The position numbers were made by a program, and so were the translations under genes. Below the pieces are notes generated by a model. That model was not told the DNA's origin, did not search any database, and saw only the letters and a program-made list of their open reading frames with translations. From positions 1-64,000 of IMG/VR virus record IMGVR_UViG_3300049460_000157: a stretch of 64,000 nt of DNA; one strand, 5' to 3'. This DNA is from a virus. The stretch's first letter is position 1. Each line of letters begins with the position of its first letter. Shown piece after piece: positions 27,600 to 34,456 of this stretch.

Positions 27600-27886
27600 A
27601 TGGACAAGAAAGTCGCATTCGTCACCGATGTCCGCATCGTCGCATCCGATGACATCTGGCCCACAGAGTTCAGCCTGTGGGGCTTCTTCATGCTGCAAGG
27701 ACTCATCGTTGTGGACTGCCCACAGGCCGCGGCGATGGCAAGAAGTTCCTGCCTGGTGAAGAGGTGCGCAGCACCAAGCTGATTCGCATGGACCCGGACA
27801 AAAACGAGTTCGAGACCATGAACACCATCTACAAGGTCGTCCCCAATGCACATGTCGATGTGTACCGGATGACCGATCCAACCTGA
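27600..27886 (+). pseudogene. Small gene apparently split by a -1 frameshift
   Basis: ATG 27600 opens a frame (KKVAFVTDVRIVASDDIWPT) that ends at 27782 after losing sensible composition near 27710. In the -1 frame a natural-looking continuation (GDGKKFLPGEEVRSTKLIR, then EFETMNTIYKVVP) runs to 27886. No slippery heptamer is visible at the junction, so a disabling indel is more likely than programmed shifting. Unknown function. Confidence 0.5.
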
Positions 27887-27900
27887 ACCAGGGAGCAAAG

Positions 27901-28284
27901 ATGCAATCGACGCTGCTCAGCCGCAGGGAGATCAACGATCTCTACCTCGGCAAATGTGAAATACCGGCCCAGTCCGAACTGCTCACCCAGTTCTACCGTG
28001 TGTACGCCGGCTGGCTGGTTGCAGGCGCACCGGAAGGAGTCATCTTCACCCGCTCGTCGGGACTGTGCCAGAACCTGAAGATGTACCTGCTGCAGACCGG
28101 CAAGAGCGATCGCCAGACCGTCACTGAGCTGGGGATGGAGATGCGCAGGCAGTTCATCAACGCACGGCGCAACGATGCCTATCCGTTCGATGGCCACTCG
28201 GACAGCTACCAGCGTTCTGCTGGCGAGCGCAACTGCCACGCAAACGAAAACCGTATCAAGTGGGTGAATGAACATGCCGAATGA
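27901..28284 (+). CDS. 127-residue hypothetical protein
   Basis: ATG 27901 with AGGGAG. Helical region LLTQFYRVYAGWLVAGAPEGV, then SSGLCQNLKMYLLQTGKSDRQ, and a polar Asn/Arg/His tail. The ALxxQFYxxYxxWLxxGAP pattern is common among small phage proteins of unknown role. Overlaps the next gene by 17 nt. Confidence 0.7.
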   Translation: MQSTLLSRREINDLYLGKCEIPAQSELLTQFYRVYAGWLVAGAPEGVIFTRSSGLCQNLKMYLLQTGKSDRQTVTELGMEMRRQFINARRNDAYPFDGHSDSYQRSAGERNCHANENRIKWVNEHAE

Positions 28285-28992: not shown

Positions 28993-29177
28993 GCAACGCA
29001 GCCATCAAAGAGGACTTCATCCTCGAATCGGCCTATGGCCACAAGATCATGAGCTTCCCGACTGCGGAGAAAGCTCGTGAGTGGGCCGAACAGCGCCGTG
29101 AGACAGCCAAGGGTGTCATCCCGGCTGTGCGTCTGGTCAAGAAAACCGTCATCGAAGAGGAAATGGGCCATGTCTGA
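28989..29177 (+). CDS. 62-residue hypothetical protein before RNAP1
   Basis: ATG 28989, overlapping the previous gene by 4 nt and RNAP1 by 8 nt. Sequence: SAYGHKIMSFPTAEKAREWAEQRRE, then basic VRLVKKTVIEE. Small alpha/beta protein with no recognised family. Confidence 0.65.
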   Translation: MSNAAIKEDFILESAYGHKIMSFPTAEKAREWAEQRRETAKGVIPAVRLVKKTVIEEEMGHV

Positions 29178-30000
29178 TTCCGGCATTCAAGCAAAGCGTG
29201 CTGCACACCAGATCGAACTCGAGCGGCTCTTCAGCAAGAACCAGCTCATGCAGCGGATCCGGGCCGAATTCAGCGAGTGTGCTGCGTTCGACTTCAAGGT
29301 TTATCTGAAGGAGCAGGACATCCCCGAAGACTTCGGCATCGAGCTGCTCGCCCAGATGGCGCTGCACAAGCGTGCTGACCTGCCGACCATGGTTGGCTGT
29401 CTGCGCCACCTGTGCGCCACCTCACAGGAATGTGCTGACCTGCTGCTCAAGTGTGCGATGGCGGATCTGATGGACTGGTCCCCTACCCTGCGCATCTTCG
29501 TGGTCAAATTCACGATCAGTGCTGATGTGCAGACTGACATCGACCGGTTCCAGTATCCGCTGCCGATGGTCGTCGAGCCCAAGGAAGTGAAGTCCAACAA
29601 GCAGTCAGGCTACTTCCTGAACAACAACAGCATCATCCTGAAGAACAACCACCATGACGATGATGTGTGTCTCGACCACATCAACCGCATGAACCGTGTG
29701 AAGTTCAAAGTCAACTTCGACACGGCCAGCATGATCAAGAACCAGTGGAGGAACCTTGACAAGCCCAAGGATGGAGAAACAACAGCGGACTTCGAACGGC
29801 GAGTACGCGCTTTCAACAAATACGACAAGACTGCTCATGATGTCATCGGCGTACTTATTCAGCACGGAAACGAGTTCCACAGTACCCACAGGTACTGCAA
29901 ACGTGGCCGGACCTATTGCCAGGGATATCACGTCAACTACCAGGGAACAGCCTGGAACAAAGCCGTGATCGAGTTCGCGGCCGGCGAGGTGACGAGGTGA
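29170..30000 (+). CDS. RNA polymerase II small subunit RNAP1 (N4 gp15-like)
   Basis: 276 residues (N4 gp15: 269). It is the N-terminal half of a T7-type single-subunit polymerase: YPLPMVVEPKEVKSN near 140 corresponds to the PPxPW region of T7 RNAP, and CKRGRTYCQGYHVNYQGT near 250 carries the conserved xxGR motif that contacts the template and nucleotide. The fingers/palm half is encoded separately at 33263. In N4 the two genes are adjacent; here they lie 3.3 kb apart. Confidence 0.88.
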   Translation: MSDSGIQAKRAAHQIELERLFSKNQLMQRIRAEFSECAAFDFKVYLKEQDIPEDFGIELLAQMALHKRADLPTMVGCLRHLCATSQECADLLLKCAMADLMDWSPTLRIFVVKFTISADVQTDIDRFQYPLPMVVEPKEVKSNKQSGYFLNNNSIILKNNHHDDDVCLDHINRMNRVKFKVNFDTASMIKNQWRNLDKPKDGETTADFERRVRAFNKYDKTAHDVIGVLIQHGNEFHSTHRYCKRGRTYCQGYHVNYQGTAWNKAVIEFAAGEVTR

Positions 30001-30334: not shown

Positions 30335-30524
30335 ACGAGCAAAGCGTCTAGGTGAAGCCATCCGGCGATTCGAGCAGGCTGTGCGTGCCGACGAGATGCG
30401 AGGTGCGCAACGTCCGGAGGACCAGGAAGATATCAAGCGTGAGTACCGGGAAGCACTAAGCCATCTGGCGAATGTGATTACCGAGCCAACTTACCAAGGA
30501 ACCAAGGAAGGAAGTAACCAATGA
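30327..30524 (+). CDS. 65-residue helical protein
   Basis: ATG 30327 with GGAG; overlaps both neighbours. Charged helices (RAKRLGEAIRRFEQAVRAD, DQEDIKREYREALSHLANV). Its 3' end contains two CCAAGG copies (30494, 30502) of the dispersed motif. Function unknown. Confidence 0.65.
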   Translation: MNERAKRLGEAIRRFEQAVRADEMRGAQRPEDQEDIKREYREALSHLANVITEPTYQGTKEGSNQ

Positions 30525-30709
30525 GCGAAGCCCGTGAAGTCGCCGTGACCCTGCTACCCTGGTACAGAGCAATCCTCGGCTCAACGAAGTCGGCCAGCAC
30601 AGTAAGCAAGGCCATGCGATACATCCGTGAGCGCATGCGCAATGAGACCGAGACGGTCATGGATAACGTTGCGTGGGAACTCCATCAACTCGCAAAAGGT
30701 GACGCATGA
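30521..30709 (+). CDS. 62-residue hypothetical protein
   Basis: ATG 30521 behind AAGGAAGGAAG. Helical with VTLLPWYRAILGSTKSASTVSK and RERMRNETETVMDNVAWEL. Ends 4 nt into the next small gene. Unknown function. Confidence 0.65.
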   Translation: MSEAREVAVTLLPWYRAILGSTKSASTVSKAMRYIRERMRNETETVMDNVAWELHQLAKGDA

Positions 30710-30864
30710 GCGGCCCGACACAGCCCTGCCCTATCCTCTGCACCTGCCGGCCCACCCGTGGTCTGGCCTGCCACATTCATTGGGGCACTCGCCCCTATGA
30801 TCCGCTGAACGAAACGGCAAGGAAGACTCCTTCCAATCAACCAAGCAGTCCACCTTCCAAGTAA
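30706..30864 (+). CDS. 52-residue Cys-rich protein
   Basis: ATG 30706, TAA at 30862-30864. Carries CPILCTC and GLACHIHWG, a possible Cys4/His metal site, then a disordered Ser/Pro tail. Last gene before the partition module and directly followed by a hairpin. Small size leaves some doubt. Confidence 0.55.
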   Translation: MSGPTQPCPILCTCRPTRGLACHIHWGTRPYDPLNETARKTPSNQPSSPPSK

Positions 30865-30904
30865 CCAAGAAACGAGGGAGCCATCCCTCCTTCTATCCTT
30901 GGTT
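30863..30904. other. Nested hairpin bounding the partition module on its left
   Basis: GAGGGA-GCCA-TCCCTC (30874-30889) enclosed by AACCAAG (30863) and CTTGGTT (30898). The outer arms are an inverted pair of the dispersed motif. No T-run; may act as a weak terminator or protein site. Confidence 0.55.
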
Positions 30905-30950
30905 CCCTCCTTCACTCGCTCCTCTCTTTGAGACTTGCATCCCTCCGGGA

Positions 30951-30977
30951 TTGGTTTACCGTATACGGTTGAACCAA
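30951..30977. promoter_or_regulatory. Palindromic operator upstream of parA
   Basis: A perfect 12-bp palindrome ACCGTATACGGT (30958-30969) is flanked by TTGGTT (30951) and AACCAA (30972). It lies 17 bp before the parA start and includes a TATACG -10-like sequence, so a repressor bound here would block the promoter. ParG-type proteins autorepress their operons through such sites. Confidence 0.75.
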
Positions 30978-30993
30978 CCACTCCGGAGTTCAC

Positions 30994-31638
30994 ATGAAAA
31001 CAATCGTCTTCTCCTGCCTGAAGGGCGGGAGTGGCAAGACCACGCATTCCGCACATCTGGCCGTCGCTCTTGAGGCGATGGGCAAGGGTCCGGTCGTCAC
31101 CATGGACCTGGATCCGCAAGGCTCCTTCAGTGACTGGTGGAACGATCGCAAAGCCGACACACCGGTCTTCGCCATGGTCGAGGACATCAAGGCATTCCCG
31201 AAGAAACATGCAGCGCTGGTCGAGGCGGGGTTCGAGTATTGCGTGGTCGACACGCCGCCGCAGAATGCGGCCATCAACGAGGCTGCTGTCGAGGCCGCCG
31301 ACCTGGTGATCATCCCGGTCAAGCACTCCCCTCACGACATCCGGGCAGCGGTTACCACGGTTCAGCTCTGTGAGCGACTGAAGAAGAAGTTCTTCTTTCT
31401 GCTCAATGAGACCAACGGCAAGGGTGTGACGCTGGACGCCACACGTAACCTCGCCGCCATGGGACCGGTGATCCCGCATGCGGTGCCCAAGCTCAATGGC
31501 TACTGGCAGTCGATGATCGACGGCCGCACGTTCAGGGAGATGAACAAGGGCACCGGCGCCATCGTCGTGGAGCAGGTCGCCCAGTTTATCGTGGGCCAGT
31601 TCGAGAAGCCCGTAAAGAAGGAGAAAGCCTATGTCTAG
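30994..31638 (+). CDS. parA: ParA/ParF-type partition ATPase
   Basis: 214 residues, the size of small type Ib ParA proteins (ParF about 206). Deviant Walker A KGGSGKTT at residues 10-17, Walker A' MDLDPQGSFSDW near 38, Walker B YCVVDTPPQ near 80, and PVKHSPHDIRAA. GGAG lies six bases before the ATG. These ATPases form gradients on the nucleoid and position plasmid or phage-plasmid copies. Overlaps the next gene by 8 nt. No N-terminal HTH, as expected of type Ib. Confidence 0.9.
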   Translation: MKTIVFSCLKGGSGKTTHSAHLAVALEAMGKGPVVTMDLDPQGSFSDWWNDRKADTPVFAMVEDIKAFPKKHAALVEAGFEYCVVDTPPQNAAINEAAVEAADLVIIPVKHSPHDIRAAVTTVQLCERLKKKFFFLLNETNGKGVTLDATRNLAAMGPVIPHAVPKLNGYWQSMIDGRTFREMNKGTGAIVVEQVAQFIVGQFEKPVKKEKAYV

Positions 31639-31807
31639 GACGCAAAGCGCAGAAATGGCACTCAATCCACAGCGCTGGACATCTGCCAGCACTAGCCCGG
31701 CAGAAAATGGCGGCTTTGTTGCCTACGGTGACTACCTCACCCTGCGTCGCATGTACGAGGATGTGAAGGCTGAGCTCGATGTCTTGAAGGAGAAGGACCA
31801 TGTCTAG
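31631..31807 (+). CDS. 58-residue protein inside the partition operon
   Basis: ATG 31631 in the sequence ATGTCTAG, overlapping parA. Sequence NPQRWTSASTSPAENGGFVAY, then LRRMYEDVKAELDVLKEKD, a short C-terminal coiled coil. Its own end repeats the ATGTCTAG overlap with the next gene, so the three are translationally chained. Function unknown; a partition accessory is possible. Confidence 0.6.
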   Translation: MSRTQSAEMALNPQRWTSASTSPAENGGFVAYGDYLTLRRMYEDVKAELDVLKEKDHV

Positions 31808-32132
31808 GCCATCACTGGATGCGGTCATCACACGCAAGGGAGCAGCAGCGCCAGCCAGCCTTGAGGCCAAGGAACCAAGTAAGGAAGCAACCGGGGAGGT
31901 ATCCAAGGAGACTTCTAACCAAGGAGCCAAGGAAGAAAGGAAGCGTGCCTGGCATCAGCCGGGGCAGGAAGAGTGGAAGAAGACCAACTACGAGATGCCG
32001 TTGCGGGTGCAGACCAAGCTCAAGGAAATGAAGAACTGGGGATACATCCCGAATGTGTACAAGTTCGTGGCCGAAGCCGTCGAGAAGGAGATCGACAAGG
32101 TCATCGCCAAGGCCGAGAAGGAGGGCTTCTGA
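31800..32132 (+). CDS. ParG-like centromere-binding protein (candidate)
   Basis: 110 residues. Residues 1-60 are disordered, rich in Lys/Glu/Ala/Ser. Residues 62-105 (KKTNYEMPLRVQTKLKEM, then PNVYKFVAEAVEKEIDK) fit a ribbon-helix-helix unit: a short strand and two helices. ParG partners of ParF have exactly this plan of flexible tail plus RHH. The DNA coding the tail holds five CCAAG copies of the dispersed motif (31863-31935). Assigned by structure pattern and synteny, not by a strong motif. Confidence 0.65.
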   Translation: MSRPSLDAVITRKGAAAPASLEAKEPSKEATGEVSKETSNQGAKEERKRAWHQPGQEEWKKTNYEMPLRVQTKLKEMKNWGYIPNVYKFVAEAVEKEIDKVIAKAEKEGF

Positions 32133-32722
32133 TGACTGCCGTGAGTGAGGAAGAGGAACAGCAGTTTGAGCTGTTTCAGGCCGAGACGACCTGGTTCCAT
32201 ATCTTCAGATCCATGATGGACAGTGGCGACGCAGCCAGGATGGGCGGCAACGCCTTCATGATCTACTGCATCATCAAGGGCCACACGAACTTCAGGACGG
32301 GCAGGGCATTCCCCTCGATCGATACCATCATCGAGAAGTCCGGCCTGTCCAAGTCTCAGGTGCTGCGCGAGCTGTCCACCCTGGAGGACATGGGCTACAT
32401 CACCCGAGCCAGGGAAGGGCGCAAGAACGTCTACACGCTCAGGGAGAAGATCGGCATCAGCGATGACAAGGGCCGGCCCATAGCGGACGCTACGTGGGAT
32501 TACGTGCCCGATGGCGTGAGGACCGCGGTAGCGGAGCTCAAGCACGTCATGATGACCGGCGACTTCAAAGGCGCCAAGATCATCAACATCGAGAACATGA
32601 CGGTGCACTTCAACCAGGCCAACGACAGCTCGGTGCAGATCAACATCCAGCACCTGGTCGACAATATGGATAAGCTCACACCGGAGTTGAAGGAGATTCT
32701 TCTGAGGAATCTCACGAAATAG
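32132..32722 (+). CDS. Winged-helix Rep-like protein
   Basis: 196 residues from ATG 32132 (TGATG overlap). Residues 30-90 form a HTH_36-type winged helix: NAFMIYCIIKGHTNF, FPSIDTIIEKSGLSKSQVLR, ELSTLEDMGYITR. HTH_36 domains occur in plasmid and phage replication initiators. The C-terminal half (KGAKIINIENMTVHFNQAN) is unfamiliar. Its stop overlaps the first of four palindromic repeats, the arrangement of a Rep gene next to its iterons. Alternatively a transcription regulator. Confidence 0.65.
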   Translation: MTAVSEEEEQQFELFQAETTWFHIFRSMMDSGDAARMGGNAFMIYCIIKGHTNFRTGRAFPSIDTIIEKSGLSKSQVLRELSTLEDMGYITRAREGRKNVYTLREKIGISDDKGRPIADATWDYVPDGVRTAVAELKHVMMTGDFKGAKIINIENMTVHFNQANDSSVQINIQHLVDNMDKLTPELKEILLRNLTK

Positions 32723-32848
32723 GTGTCATCCATGGCACCAATTCAATAGGTGTCACCGGTGACACGTATCAACCGTGCGTTGTGTCCCCCATTTATAGGT
32801 GTCATCCGTGACACCCTTTACCGGGGAATAGGTGCCACCCATGACACC
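32718..32848. repeat. Four palindromic iteron-like repeats
   Basis: Consensus AATAGGTGTCAYCSRTGACACC at 32718-32739, 32745-32765, 32794-32815 and 32827-32848. Each is an imperfect palindrome (GGTGTCA / TGACACC). Start spacing is 27, 49 and 33 bp, and a degenerate half site lies at about 32780. Placement right after the Rep-like gene suggests its binding sites. Confidence 0.85.
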
Positions 32849-32858
32849 CTAACGAGAA

Positions 32859-32920
32859 GAGATTTTAAGTTAACAATACATAAAGTTATCCACAGATTAA
32901 GTGGACTACCATGTGGATAA
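32859..32920. other. Putative plasmid-type origin core: AT-rich stretch with two DnaA boxes
   Basis: TTATCCACA at 32886-32894 and its reverse complement TGTGGATAA at 32912-32920, both identical to the DnaA R1 box, 26 bp apart in inverted orientation. Just left is AT-rich DNA (32862-32885). Repeats, AT-rich unwinding element and DnaA boxes in this order make a typical iteron origin. N4-type replication does not need DnaA, so the boxes are out of place otherwise. Confidence 0.7.
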
Positions 32921-32932
32921 CCAGGAGCGATC

Positions 32933-33181
32933 ATGAGCGATCCGCAGGAACCGAAGAACCTTGTGCTTGAGCGACTCAACCAGGTCATGGCTGAAGTCCA
33001 GGCCATGCGTGCCGAGAACAAACAGATGCATGAGAACCTGCACGACGACATGCGGCAGATCAAGGCCCGCATGACCGCGCTCGAAAAACAGATGGCGATC
33101 ACCAATGAATCGGTGGTGGCCCAGTGGGACACGTTCGACAAGCACGAGAATCGACTACGCAGTCTCGAGACACAAAGCTGA
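32933..33181 (+). CDS. 82-residue coiled-coil protein
   Basis: ATG 32933 with AGGAG, 12 bp after the second DnaA box. Almost entirely coiled coil: VLERLNQVMAEVQAMRAENK, MRQIKARMTALEKQM, ending HENRLRSLETQS. No family recognised. Last gene of the plasmid-like block, followed by a terminator. Confidence 0.7.
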   Translation: MSDPQEPKNLVLERLNQVMAEVQAMRAENKQMHENLHDDMRQIKARMTALEKQMAITNESVVAQWDTFDKHENRLRSLETQS

Positions 33182-33205
33182 TCCGTCAGCCACCGCAGTA
33201 CACCG

Positions 33206-33231
33206 AAAGCCGCCTTCCAGGTGGCTTTTTT
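33206..33231 (+). terminator. Terminator closing the plasmid-like block
   Basis: AAAGCCGCC / GGTGGCTTT with a 5-nt loop and TTTTTT. Separates the module from RNAP2. Confidence 0.88.
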
Positions 33232-33262
33232 CATTTCAGAACTGAATTTCAAGGAGCCCATC

Positions 33263-34456
33263 ATGCAGAAATTCACCGGTATGCAGTACCTCCAGATCGA
33301 CATCGCTTCCAACTACGGGCTGGACAAGAAGACCTGGGACGAGCGTCTTGCCTGGTTCAAGGCCCATGAGGACTGCCTCATGGAGATGCTGGCGACCGCC
33401 GAGACGCCGGCGCTGTACTACGCAGGTGTCAAGGCCTACGAGGCAGCACTGGCAGGGCAGGCGAGTGGCTATCCGGTCTCGCTCGATGCCACGGCATCTG
33501 GCCTGCAGATCCTCGCAGCACTCACCGGCGACCGGTCGGCCGCGGAGCTGTGCAACGTGGTCAGCACCGGCTACCGTGCAGACGCCTACACCGGCGTCTA
33601 CGACCGGATGCTGGTCAAGATCGGGGAGGAGGGCAAGATCAAGCGTACGGACGTGAAGCAGGCCGTGATGACGGCGCTGTACGGCTCCAAGGCTGTGCCG
33701 AAGGAGGTATTCGGTGAAGGCGTCCTTCTGGCTATGTTTTACGACACCATGCAGGAGGTCGCACCGGCCGCCTGGGAGCTCAACGAGGCGTTCCTCGACA
33801 TGTGGAACCCGGAGGCGCTCTGCAACAGCTGGGTGCTGCCGGATAACTTCCACGTCCACGTCAAGGTCATGAGCCAGGTGAAAGAGACAGTGCACTTCCT
33901 GAACGAGCCGTTCGACACGTTCCGCACGGTCAACGCACCGGTCGATGAAGGCCGGTCACTGGGTGCCAACACCATCCACTCACTGGACGGCATGATCGTG
34001 CGCGAGATGAACCGCCGCTGCAACTACGACCGCAACGTGGTCGACCGCGTCTACGCAGCGCTCGACGGCGAGGGCAACGCTGGCCTGGACGAAGACGATG
34101 CCATGGTGATGACGCTGTGGGCGCACTACAAGGAGTCGGGCTACCTGTCAGCCCGCATCCTCGATCACCTGTTTCACGACAACATCGATTTGGTTGACAT
34201 CGCAACGATCCGTGAACTGCTGAATAGTCTCCCGCAGACACCTTTCCAGATCATGACCATCCATGACTGTTTCCGCTGTCTGCCGAACTATGGCAATGAT
34301 CTGCGTGAACAGTACAACCTTCAGTTGCAACTCATTGCGAAGTCTGACCTGCTTCAGTTCCTGATCCGTCAGCTGCTGCAGCGTCAGGTCAACATCAGCA
34401 AGCTCGATCCCGACCTGTGGAAGGACATTGATCAGGCCGAGTACGCACTTAGTTAA
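33263..34456 (+). CDS. RNA polymerase II large subunit RNAP2 (N4 gp16-like)
   Basis: 397 residues (N4 gp16: 404), ATG 33263 with AAGGAG. Carries the catalytic motifs of T7-type polymerases: motif A SLDATASGLQILAALTGD (catalytic Asp) near 75, motif B RTDVKQAVMTALYGSK near 130 (O-helix Lys and Tyr), and motif C MTIHDCFRCLP near 330 (second catalytic Asp). Acts with RNAP1 (29170) to transcribe middle genes; in N4 it needs phage ssDNA-binding proteins for promoter access. Confidence 0.92.
   Translation: MQKFTGMQYLQIDIASNYGLDKKTWDERLAWFKAHEDCLMEMLATAETPALYYAGVKAYEAALAGQASGYPVSLDATASGLQILAALTGDRSAAELCNVVSTGYRADAYTGVYDRMLVKIGEEGKIKRTDVKQAVMTALYGSKAVPKEVFGEGVLLAMFYDTMQEVAPAAWELNEAFLDMWNPEALCNSWVLPDNFHVHVKVMSQVKETVHFLNEPFDTFRTVNAPVDEGRSLGANTIHSLDGMIVREMNRRCNYDRNVVDRVYAALDGEGNAGLDEDDAMVMTLWAHYKESGYLSARILDHLFHDNIDLVDIATIRELLNSLPQTPFQIMTIHDCFRCLPNYGNDLREQYNLQLQLIAKSDLLQFLIRQLLQRQVNISKLDPDLWKDIDQAEYALS

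Follow-up and report, generated by a model that had tools for sequence, protein, structure and literature searches.

Known phage-plasmids, such as P1, N15, VP882 and the cluster A mycobacteriophages, are temperate siphoviruses and myoviruses. Among plasmids, iteron/DnaA-dependent theta replicons consist of a Rep gene, iterons, an AT-rich region and DnaA boxes, whereas initiators of the RepA_N type have their iterons inside the gene. Here, we describe a locus of an N4-like virus that combines a parA gene, a small gene, a gene for a candidate winged-helix replication initiator (rep), and an origin-like region behind rep. It occupies positions 30,951–33,231 of the window, i.e., the whole analyzed stretch of DNA, which covers 64,000 of the 74,740 bases of virus record IMGVR_UViG_3300049460_000157. 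We interpret the block as a plasmid-type replicon that is coupled to a type Ib-like partition system and carried by an N4-like phage, which would make this virus a novel form of phage-plasmid. We estimate a probability of about 75% that the replicon, with its own partition system, allows the virus to be maintained in host cells as a circular element of low copy number that replicates with the help of DnaA.

N4-like phages are considered strictly lytic according to the portions of a 2023 mSystems article that were available (PMC10654107), in which lysogeny of N4-like viruses is argued from integrase and diversity-generating retroelement (DGR) genes and from integrated proviruses. From the accessible portions of two other articles, phage LUZ7, listed there as Schitoviridae, was carried in clones of P. 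aeruginosa AA43 (PMC8776877), and ParA/ParB genes were used as markers of extrachromosomal prophages (PMC4533152, eLife 2015). No N4-like phage-plasmid is described in the available portions of these three articles or of PMC13299392 and PMC5512222. A search of the open-access literature also found none described; it covered titles and the beginnings of abstracts, most subscription papers and preprints lying outside it.

Organization of the putative replication and partition block

The carrier was recognized as N4-like by profile searches, in agreement with the original prediction, which had placed a plasmid-type module inside an N4-like phage. The window contains N4-type RNA polymerase genes RNAP1 and RNAP2, and the genome also encodes TerL, a portal, an N4-type major head (capsid) protein, an exonuclease, and a primase. 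The split RNAP1/RNAP2 pair, major capsid, portal, TerL, and primase that characterize Schitoviridae are therefore all present. An open reading frame (ORF) of 3,366 amino acids (aa) in the remainder of the record (L042 4532–14632, minus strand) has the size of a virion RNA polymerase (vRNAP, expected at about 3,400 aa). The record is probably a complete genome.

The block sits between RNAP1 and RNAP2, on their strand, at the coordinates originally given (Table 1). The order in this interval is small ORFs, the palindrome, parA, a 58-aa ORF, a 110-aa gene, the 196-aa winged-helix gene and the repeats, followed 3′ by the DnaA boxes, a gene of 82 aa and a hairpin resembling a terminator. A pattern scan of 30400–33400 found no sigma70-type promoter.

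ParA is a protein of 214 aa in which the Walker A′ motif KGGSGKTT and the motif VVDTPP can be read. It matched the PHROG family "ParA-like partition protein" (E-value 8.6e-34) and Pfam AAA_31 (2.5e-16), and the match to NCBIfam ParA_partition (9.2e-36, residues 4–189) was below the curated cut-off of that model. In a comparison of a five-row ParA profile with the PDB, the top chains were named ParA (5u1g, 9.6e-24) and ParF (4dzz, 4.7e-23), both of which we take to come from plasmid TP228; the next chain followed at 6e-16. Thus, the ParF-size ParA with Walker A′ and B motifs that had been proposed was confirmed, its nearest relatives in profile searches being ParF-type plasmid partition ATPases and no non-partition family. 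As a short deviant Walker-A ParA related to ParF, the protein agrees with what is expected of the ATPase of a type Ib system.

The winged-helix gene likewise agreed with the Rep-like protein that had been predicted. Its 196-aa product matched Pfam HTH_36 (1.6e-12), an uncharacterised phage family of PHROG (2.7e-31), and PHROG families of replication initiation proteins (5.6e-13 and weaker). No named plasmid Rep family and no RepA_N was found in Pfam and NCBIfam scans, the latter giving weak generic helix-turn-helix (HTH) matches only. The best PDB match by sequence was TubR, a winged-helix partition protein (4e-4). For the structural model (mean predicted local distance difference test score, pLDDT, 70.1), the two top fold rows were 4pql (Z 9.4) and 4pt7 ("Structure of initiator"; Z 9.3), aligned over 94 residues, and the Rep-DNA complex 5kbj ranked seventh (Z 8.6); we take all three to belong to the RepA_N family. 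The predicted protein resembles PHROG initiators by sequence and an initiator N-terminal domain by fold, among other winged helices. Its initiator role is proposed because of the iterons and DnaA boxes in the DNA behind the gene, rather than because of the fold.

The repeats and DnaA boxes of the original prediction were both recovered. Four 23-nt palindromic repeats, the first of which overlaps the rep stop codon, are followed by an AT-rich stretch and by a pair of perfect DnaA boxes; no other perfect box occurs in the genome of 74,740 bp. The window therefore contains both an initiator-like gene with adjacent iterons and an AT-rich region with a DnaA box, two of the features expected of an iteron/DnaA replicon. 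A similar AT-rich stretch was read by eye behind rep in many relatives.

The origin region was surveyed in 26 loci including the window; duplicates and near-copies (L016, L018, L025, L028, L029, L032, L033, and L041) were left out, and close pairs such as L021/L024 and L022/L023 were retained. To count iterons, similar 16-mers in the 340 bp at the rep stop were grouped, and the size of the largest group was compared with that in 60 shuffles. Five copies were counted in the window against at most three in the shuffles, and counts exceeded all 60 shuffles in 20 of the 26 loci. In the remaining six, the count was reached by 11 (L003, i.e., Acinetobacter phage vB_IME_Ab2712), 3 (L014), 47 (L019), and 4 shuffles (each of L031, L035, and L039). 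At L013 the counter took a DnaA-box-like repeat, and CCCTTA...TAAGGG palindromes were read there by eye. The iteron sequence varies from locus to locus. A perfect DnaA box was located within −40 to +380 bp of the rep stop in 20 of the 26 loci, and these intervals, with 10,920 bases, hold 24 of the 29 perfect boxes found in 401,674 bases. With iterons and boxes recurring behind the gene, there was no sign that the HTH gene is an ordinary regulator.

The 110-aa product had been described as a ParG-like protein with a tail and a ribbon-helix-helix (RHH) domain. The architecture was retained: the AlphaFold model (mean pLDDT 62.6) has a low-confidence tail and confident helices at 68–80 and 86–107. 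The family was not, as the sequence matched no ParG or RHH family. In Foldseek, with VIA-align of three chains, two of the three matches were RHH antitoxins (ParD), none of them significant. Assignment to a named RHH family was rejected, since no PDB sequence match was better than 0.35 and the Foldseek rows were non-significant. We also scanned ten genes that hold the middle position in sister cassettes or lie next to a ParA gene. Two exceeded family cut-offs, as HicB (L027) and TacA1 (L030), and RHH-family matches below threshold were obtained for L015 (RHH_10, 0.0028), L037, and L148. The predicted product can therefore be called ParG-like by architecture only, the RHH reading coming from fold prediction and from some sister cassettes.

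The operator palindrome upstream of parA was verified as a perfect 12-bp palindrome, ACCGTATACGGT, located 24 bp 5′ of the gene. The 21-mer around it has exact copies upstream of parA in relatives G003 and G054 and is absent from G028, whose operator differs. CCAAG-type repeats, considered as a candidate centromere, occur upstream of parA, at 30494–30509, and within the RHH gene at 31867–31934. In nine loci with a ParA/RHH pair of the window type, CCAAG[GA]A was found 29 times in 2,949 bases of the RHH gene and 25 times in 4,811 bases upstream of parA, against 97 times in 164,761 bases elsewhere; L004 and L031 had zero and one, respectively, upstream of parA. Coding bias may explain part of this enrichment. 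Repeats of the CCAAGGA type, resembling those upstream of parA, make up the part of the RHH gene that encodes the low-complexity tail, and this coding sequence may therefore also belong to the centromere.

The "one compact unit" of the original prediction stood for ParA, the RHH-like small gene, Rep, the iterons, and the DnaA boxes. The small coiled-coil gene named as a further member was not upheld: the 58-aa ORF, which has an imperfect direct repeat of 31 nt (D2) on its two sides, had no relative among the loci compared and was absent from relatives whose cassettes were read out; therefore, it is not counted as part of the module. The proposed terminator was recovered as a hairpin, with a similar one read in L006; however, the scan gave four terminator-like sites against 2.7 in shuffles, so the hairpin is weak on its own.

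Table 1. Coordinates of the block and its flanking genes in the window.
Feature	Position	Strand	Basis and remarks
RNAP1 of N4 type (gp15-like), flank	29077..30000	+	phrog_2166, 3.5e-105
Candidate centromere: repeats of the AACCAAG / CCAAG type 5′ of parA	30839..30904		Motif count; putative
Operator palindrome TTTACCGTATACGGTTGAACC	30955..30975		Perfect core 30958-30969; single copy in the window
parA, short ATPase with a deviant Walker A motif, similar to plasmid ParAs of type Ib (ParF)	30994..31638	+	Profiles; motifs in the sequence
58-aa ORF between parA and the RHH gene	31631..31807	+	Window only; outside the conserved module
Candidate ParG-like centromere-binding protein/autorepressor, disordered tail and RHH-like C-terminus	31800..32132	+	Fold prediction; sister cassettes
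rep, winged-helix replication-initiator candidate	32132..32722	+	HTH_36, PHROG, fold
Four palindromic iterons	32719..32850		23-nt repeats at 32719-32741, 32746-32768, 32795-32817, 32828-32850
AT-rich stretch between iterons and DnaA boxes, candidate DNA-unwinding element	32851..32885		Read by eye
Two convergent perfect DnaA boxes	32886..32920		Motif search; TTATCCACA (32886-32894), TGTGGATAA (32912-32920)
82-aa coiled-coil-like protein	32933..33181	+	Relatives after rep in G054 (67%) and G003 (38%), near N4-like
Intrinsic-terminator-like hairpin before RNAP2	33205..33229	+	Pattern match, near chance expectation
RNAP2 of N4 type (gp16-like), flank	33263..34456	+	phrog_2051, 4e-165

Distribution and exchange of the unit

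Relatives of the window ParA with 67–77% identity were found on three IMG/VR contigs, and an alignment search with Rep yielded 22 viral loci and six bacterial contigs. A unit of ParA, a small gene, and Rep, usually with iterons and a DnaA box, recurs in other viral contigs. Four N4-like genomes (the window, G003, G054, and G028) keep it in the RNAP1–RNAP2 slot and in the same order, although the RNAP2s of the three relatives differ from that of the window by 24–36%; the Rep of G028 is very divergent (2.6e-18). All three frames are intact in these four genomes as well as in Ab2712 and G023. Among 26 records searched for RNAP2, six contained it in full length (G003, G022, G023, G024, Ab2712, and plasmid record pRBH2-3), six gave a partial match (G005, G007, G008, G009, G011, and G013), and 14 gave none. 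The N4-type capsid family was present in eight of the 26, including G014 and G017, both without RNAP2.

The block is accessory in N4-like phages, and the earlier expectation that it does not belong to the N4 core was supported by comparing presence and absence. RNAP2-bearing IMG/VR records comprised the best 80 of 110 relatives of a first scan and 50 searched of 64 of a second. The Rep profile matched seven of these 130 (3/50 and 0/30 in the first set, the latter batch holding no positive, and 4/50 in the second), including a weak match in G123 (5.8e-7) on the strand opposite to its ParA. The ParA family was found in five of 50 and four of 50 records of the two sets. Some of the records may be fragments; therefore, these counts are lower bounds. 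G022, considered at one point to lack ParA, has it at a distance from rep. In the cultured schitoviruses Arace01, Gutmeister, Piffle, and RHEph16, the RNAP1–RNAP2 interval is annotated with hypothetical genes only. In a phage collection, RNAP2 matched 620 records (449 over at least 80% of its length), ParA matched 130, including 103 mycobacteriophages, and Rep matched five; among the ParA matches listed (40 of 130, with the organism tally) and the Rep matches, Ab2712 was the sole identifiable schitovirus. As a separate observation, L148 (G075) and L149 (G071) carry a different ParA beside a small gene in an N4-like lineage without this Rep; the small gene of L148 matched an RHH family weakly at most.

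At least four state changes were needed to explain the distribution of the Rep carriers in a quick RNAP2 tree with 132 rows. The carriers were placed in the group of the window (four of four carriers, support 99), with the Ab2712 type and G023 (92), and at G022 and G123. An apparent all-carrier clade of Acinetobacter type was discarded as a sampling effect: after 48 relatives had been added, most neighbors lacked the unit, and G022 and G123 stood apart. The Rep tree gave a different picture, in which the window Rep grouped with L021, L024, and L027, which have a fused-type polymerase match, and with the unassigned contig L026 (97/99), apart from the Reps of its N4-like kin. Several branches of this tree are long (among them L055, L013, L003, and L040), and 17 of its 24 inner forks are open; therefore, only the starred group containing the window was used. 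A single clade of N4-like Reps was rejected (p 7e-9, long branches being involved), as was a single clade of the four ParAs from the N4-like group of the window (p 0.0006). Taken together, the three trees indicate that in this group the slot was inherited and its content was exchanged with other viruses.

On balance, we lean towards a wider scenario in which a mobile replicon-plus-partition cassette repeatedly turned lytic podophage lineages into phage-plasmids, at least three and perhaps four times among N4-like viruses, and in further viral lineages as well (e.g., G008). The Rep/iteron and ParA/RHH halves would have been swapped independently, with the slot constant in the group of the window, and the result would be a hidden, inheritable intracellular phase without integration.

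The Rep unit was also observed on viral contigs of 27–47 kb (G008, comprising L043–L045, and L021, L023, L025, L027, and L029), with a partial N4 RNAP2 match inside a long polymerase frame. G008 encodes an 833-aa fused RNA polymerase, an N4-type portal, ribonucleotide reductase (RNR), ThyX, a Pol I-type DNA polymerase, and a tyrosine recombinase (27610–28059). After the fused polymerase and the portal had been seen in G008, a classification of the non-N4 carriers as T7-like (Autographiviridae) was dropped; the T7 connector family PF12236 was found in none of 29 records, but its controls were silent as well, which makes this result uninformative alone. In L014, L019, and L036, a small HTH-like gene, recognized by eye, precedes Rep in place of ParA; the contexts are a 114-kb contig of a Burkholderiales metagenome-assembled genome (MAG), a Pandoraea contig of 287 kb, and a viral contig of 11 kb, respectively. 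Rep may also serve integrative elements. Of the 12 records searched for a tyrosine integrase, only G008 had one; none was found in the genome of the window or in eight other N4-like carrier records, and this fits extrachromosomal maintenance.

A whole N4-like genome with the unit has been deposited as a plasmid. The record pRBH2-3 (NZ_CP110465, NZ_CP110465.1; L011, L012) is a 75,126-bp circular "non-mobilizable" plasmid of the clinical isolate A. baumannii RBH2 and contains the unit of three genes together with the N4-gp56 capsid, a 10.9-kb ORF, DNA polymerase, and RNAP. Over 80% of a 25-kb query, it shares 99.6% identity with Acinetobacter phage vB_IME_Ab2712 (OK149216). This phage is listed as Schitoviridae from hospital sewage, in a record that is UNVERIFIED and unannotated. 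Thus, a near-identical pair has been deposited as a phage and as a plasmid, neither being the phage of the window itself. In the plasmid database, pRBH2-3 was the only record covering RNAP2 or matching its own 25 kb. Many of its proteins have near-consecutive accessions (WP_004716431 to WP_004716607), which, given the way RefSeq accessions are numbered, may mean that an older bacterial assembly contained much of this genome. A resolvase was dismissed as a part of the unit, as it occurs only in Ab2712, G024, and pRBH2-3 (three of 20 records).

A unit with the same gene order is found on the 104-kb Polaromonas plasmid pA29BJ2, which has a ParA of another type (23% identity to the window), a small gene (124 aa as read, annotated shorter), and an HTH gene (34%), together with iteron-like palindromes and three DnaA-like boxes. 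It is the only replication/partition unit listed on this plasmid, whose gene table is incomplete and lists no phage genes; no known initiator family was found among nine other pA29BJ2 proteins scanned. In the open-access literature, pRBH2-3, Ab2712, and pA29BJ2 were found under none of these names.

Proposed mechanism and alternative explanations

Gene content and order, the iteron and DnaA-box architecture, recurrence, sporadic distribution, the exchange trees, and the deposited "plasmid" form the observed basis from which we infer the following biochemical steps and a carrier state of the phage of the window itself. Rep would bind the four iterons behind its own gene and, with host DnaA on the two boxes, open the AT-rich stretch, after which host enzymes would replicate the circle. 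The RHH protein would attach to a centromere, for which the cluster of CCAAGGAA-type repeats around parA is a possible site, and would autorepress the operon via the palindrome. The circles bound in this way would be moved across the nucleoid by ParA, as is the case in ParF/ParG systems. On lytic entry, the virus would switch to the N4-type RNA polymerases and the replication proteins that it encodes itself. Some N4-like phages, then, probably also live quietly inside cells.

Several observations weigh against this proposal. Unrelated winged helices score within 1 Z of the top fold rows of Rep, which makes the fold alone indecisive. The 110-aa protein matched no family in PHROG, Pfam, or NCBIfam; five of the ten middle genes scanned had no RHH family, including those of Ab2712 and the Polaromonas plasmid, and the Ab2712 protein weakly matched the unrelated family YjbR (0.0016). 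The origin of Ab2712 is weak, with three repeats and no DnaA-like box. The ends of the record of the window share exactly 127 bp (positions 1–127 equal the last 127 bases); however, this fits an assembler word length and is no proof of a circle. Similarly, pRBH2-3 may be circular only via assembly of terminally redundant phage DNA, or could represent a carried lytic infection. No lytic repressor was detected, HTH_3, the only family tested, being above cut-off in no N4-like carrier.

This last result, together with the deposition of Ab2712 as a sewage phage, which makes the unit compatible with virion production, would also suit a unit that acts in the lytic cycle only, as an extra origin recruiting host DnaA early, with ParA spreading or positioning genomes and no stable carrier state. 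We regard this as unlikely: Rep was not found in 123 of the 130 RNAP2 records (some of them fragments) and is thus unneeded for lytic growth, a similarly ordered unit is the only listed replicon of pA29BJ2, and the complete genome of one carrier entered the databases as a plasmid from a clinical isolate.

Alternatively, the winged-helix protein could be a second centromere-binding or regulatory protein, like TubR or AspA, with the iterons as its centromere, and the unit would serve partition only. In line with this, Rep is weakly similar to TubR in sequence, Foldseek listed the centromere-binding protein AspA among its rows, and the winged-helix gene is directly adjacent to the iterons. However, perfect DnaA boxes cluster just behind the gene, and ParA types vary beside related Reps. 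L017 and L036 have Rep with significant iterons and no ParA frame seen adjacent; the same absence of ParA applies to L014 and L039, with weaker repeats, and to L019, with none beyond chance. In addition, pA29BJ2 offers no other initiator in its incomplete gene table or among the nine proteins scanned. We therefore consider this explanation slightly more doubtful still. A decayed passenger cassette acquired from a plasmid and without present function, which would agree with an accessory and exchanged unit, is very improbable given the intact frames in six genomes, the slot kept across diverged RNAP2s, and an operator 21-mer identical in three of the four N4-like genomes.

If the phage-plasmid reading is true, the cassette changes lifestyle prediction for N4-like phages: lack of an integrase would no longer mean lytic, which bears on the choice of phages for therapy. 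It would also account for "plasmid" pRBH2-3 being an N4-like genome, and the origin of phage-plasmids from lytic phages would become directly testable.

Comparison with known systems

Similar in overall makeup are Ab2712 and pRBH2-3, which are N4-like genomes with ParA, a small gene, and an HTH gene in the order of the window. They differ in that ParA and Rep share only 33 and 40% identity, respectively, with those of the window, the unit is located at a distance from RNAP2 on the opposite strand, and a resolvase is present that was not found in the genome of the window. The "lysogenic" N4-like viruses of PMC10654107 also make a case for non-lytic life; however, that case is integrase-based in the available portions of the article, and the word plasmid occurs zero times in the main text.

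As regards partition, the window shares with the ParF/ParG (type Ib) system of TP228 a short ParA with the best PDB sequence matches, a small gene for a predicted tail and a putative RHH-like domain directly 3′ of parA, and a palindrome upstream. It differs in its repeats and operator, in the coupling of the unit to a rep gene within a phage, and in the small protein, in which ParG homology was undetected by sequence in Pfam, PDB, and NCBIfam. As regards replication, the rep-origin unit has the architecture of iteron/DnaA theta replicons, whereas its Rep is an HTH_36 winged helix that matched none of the named plasmid Rep families in Pfam or NCBIfam. With the RepA_N initiators of staphylococcal plasmids (4pql, 4pt7, and 5kbj), Rep shares the N-terminal winged-helix fold at the Z scores given above, a range within 1 of which many winged helices score, but no sequence match, and the iterons of the window lie behind the gene, not inside it.

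Finally, as in known phage-plasmids, virion genes and plasmid-type replication and partition genes occur together on one molecule in the genome of the window, and relatives of its ParA are found in Vibrio phages VP882 and VHML and in mycobacteriophages; unlike in those phages, the carrier is an N4-like podovirus.

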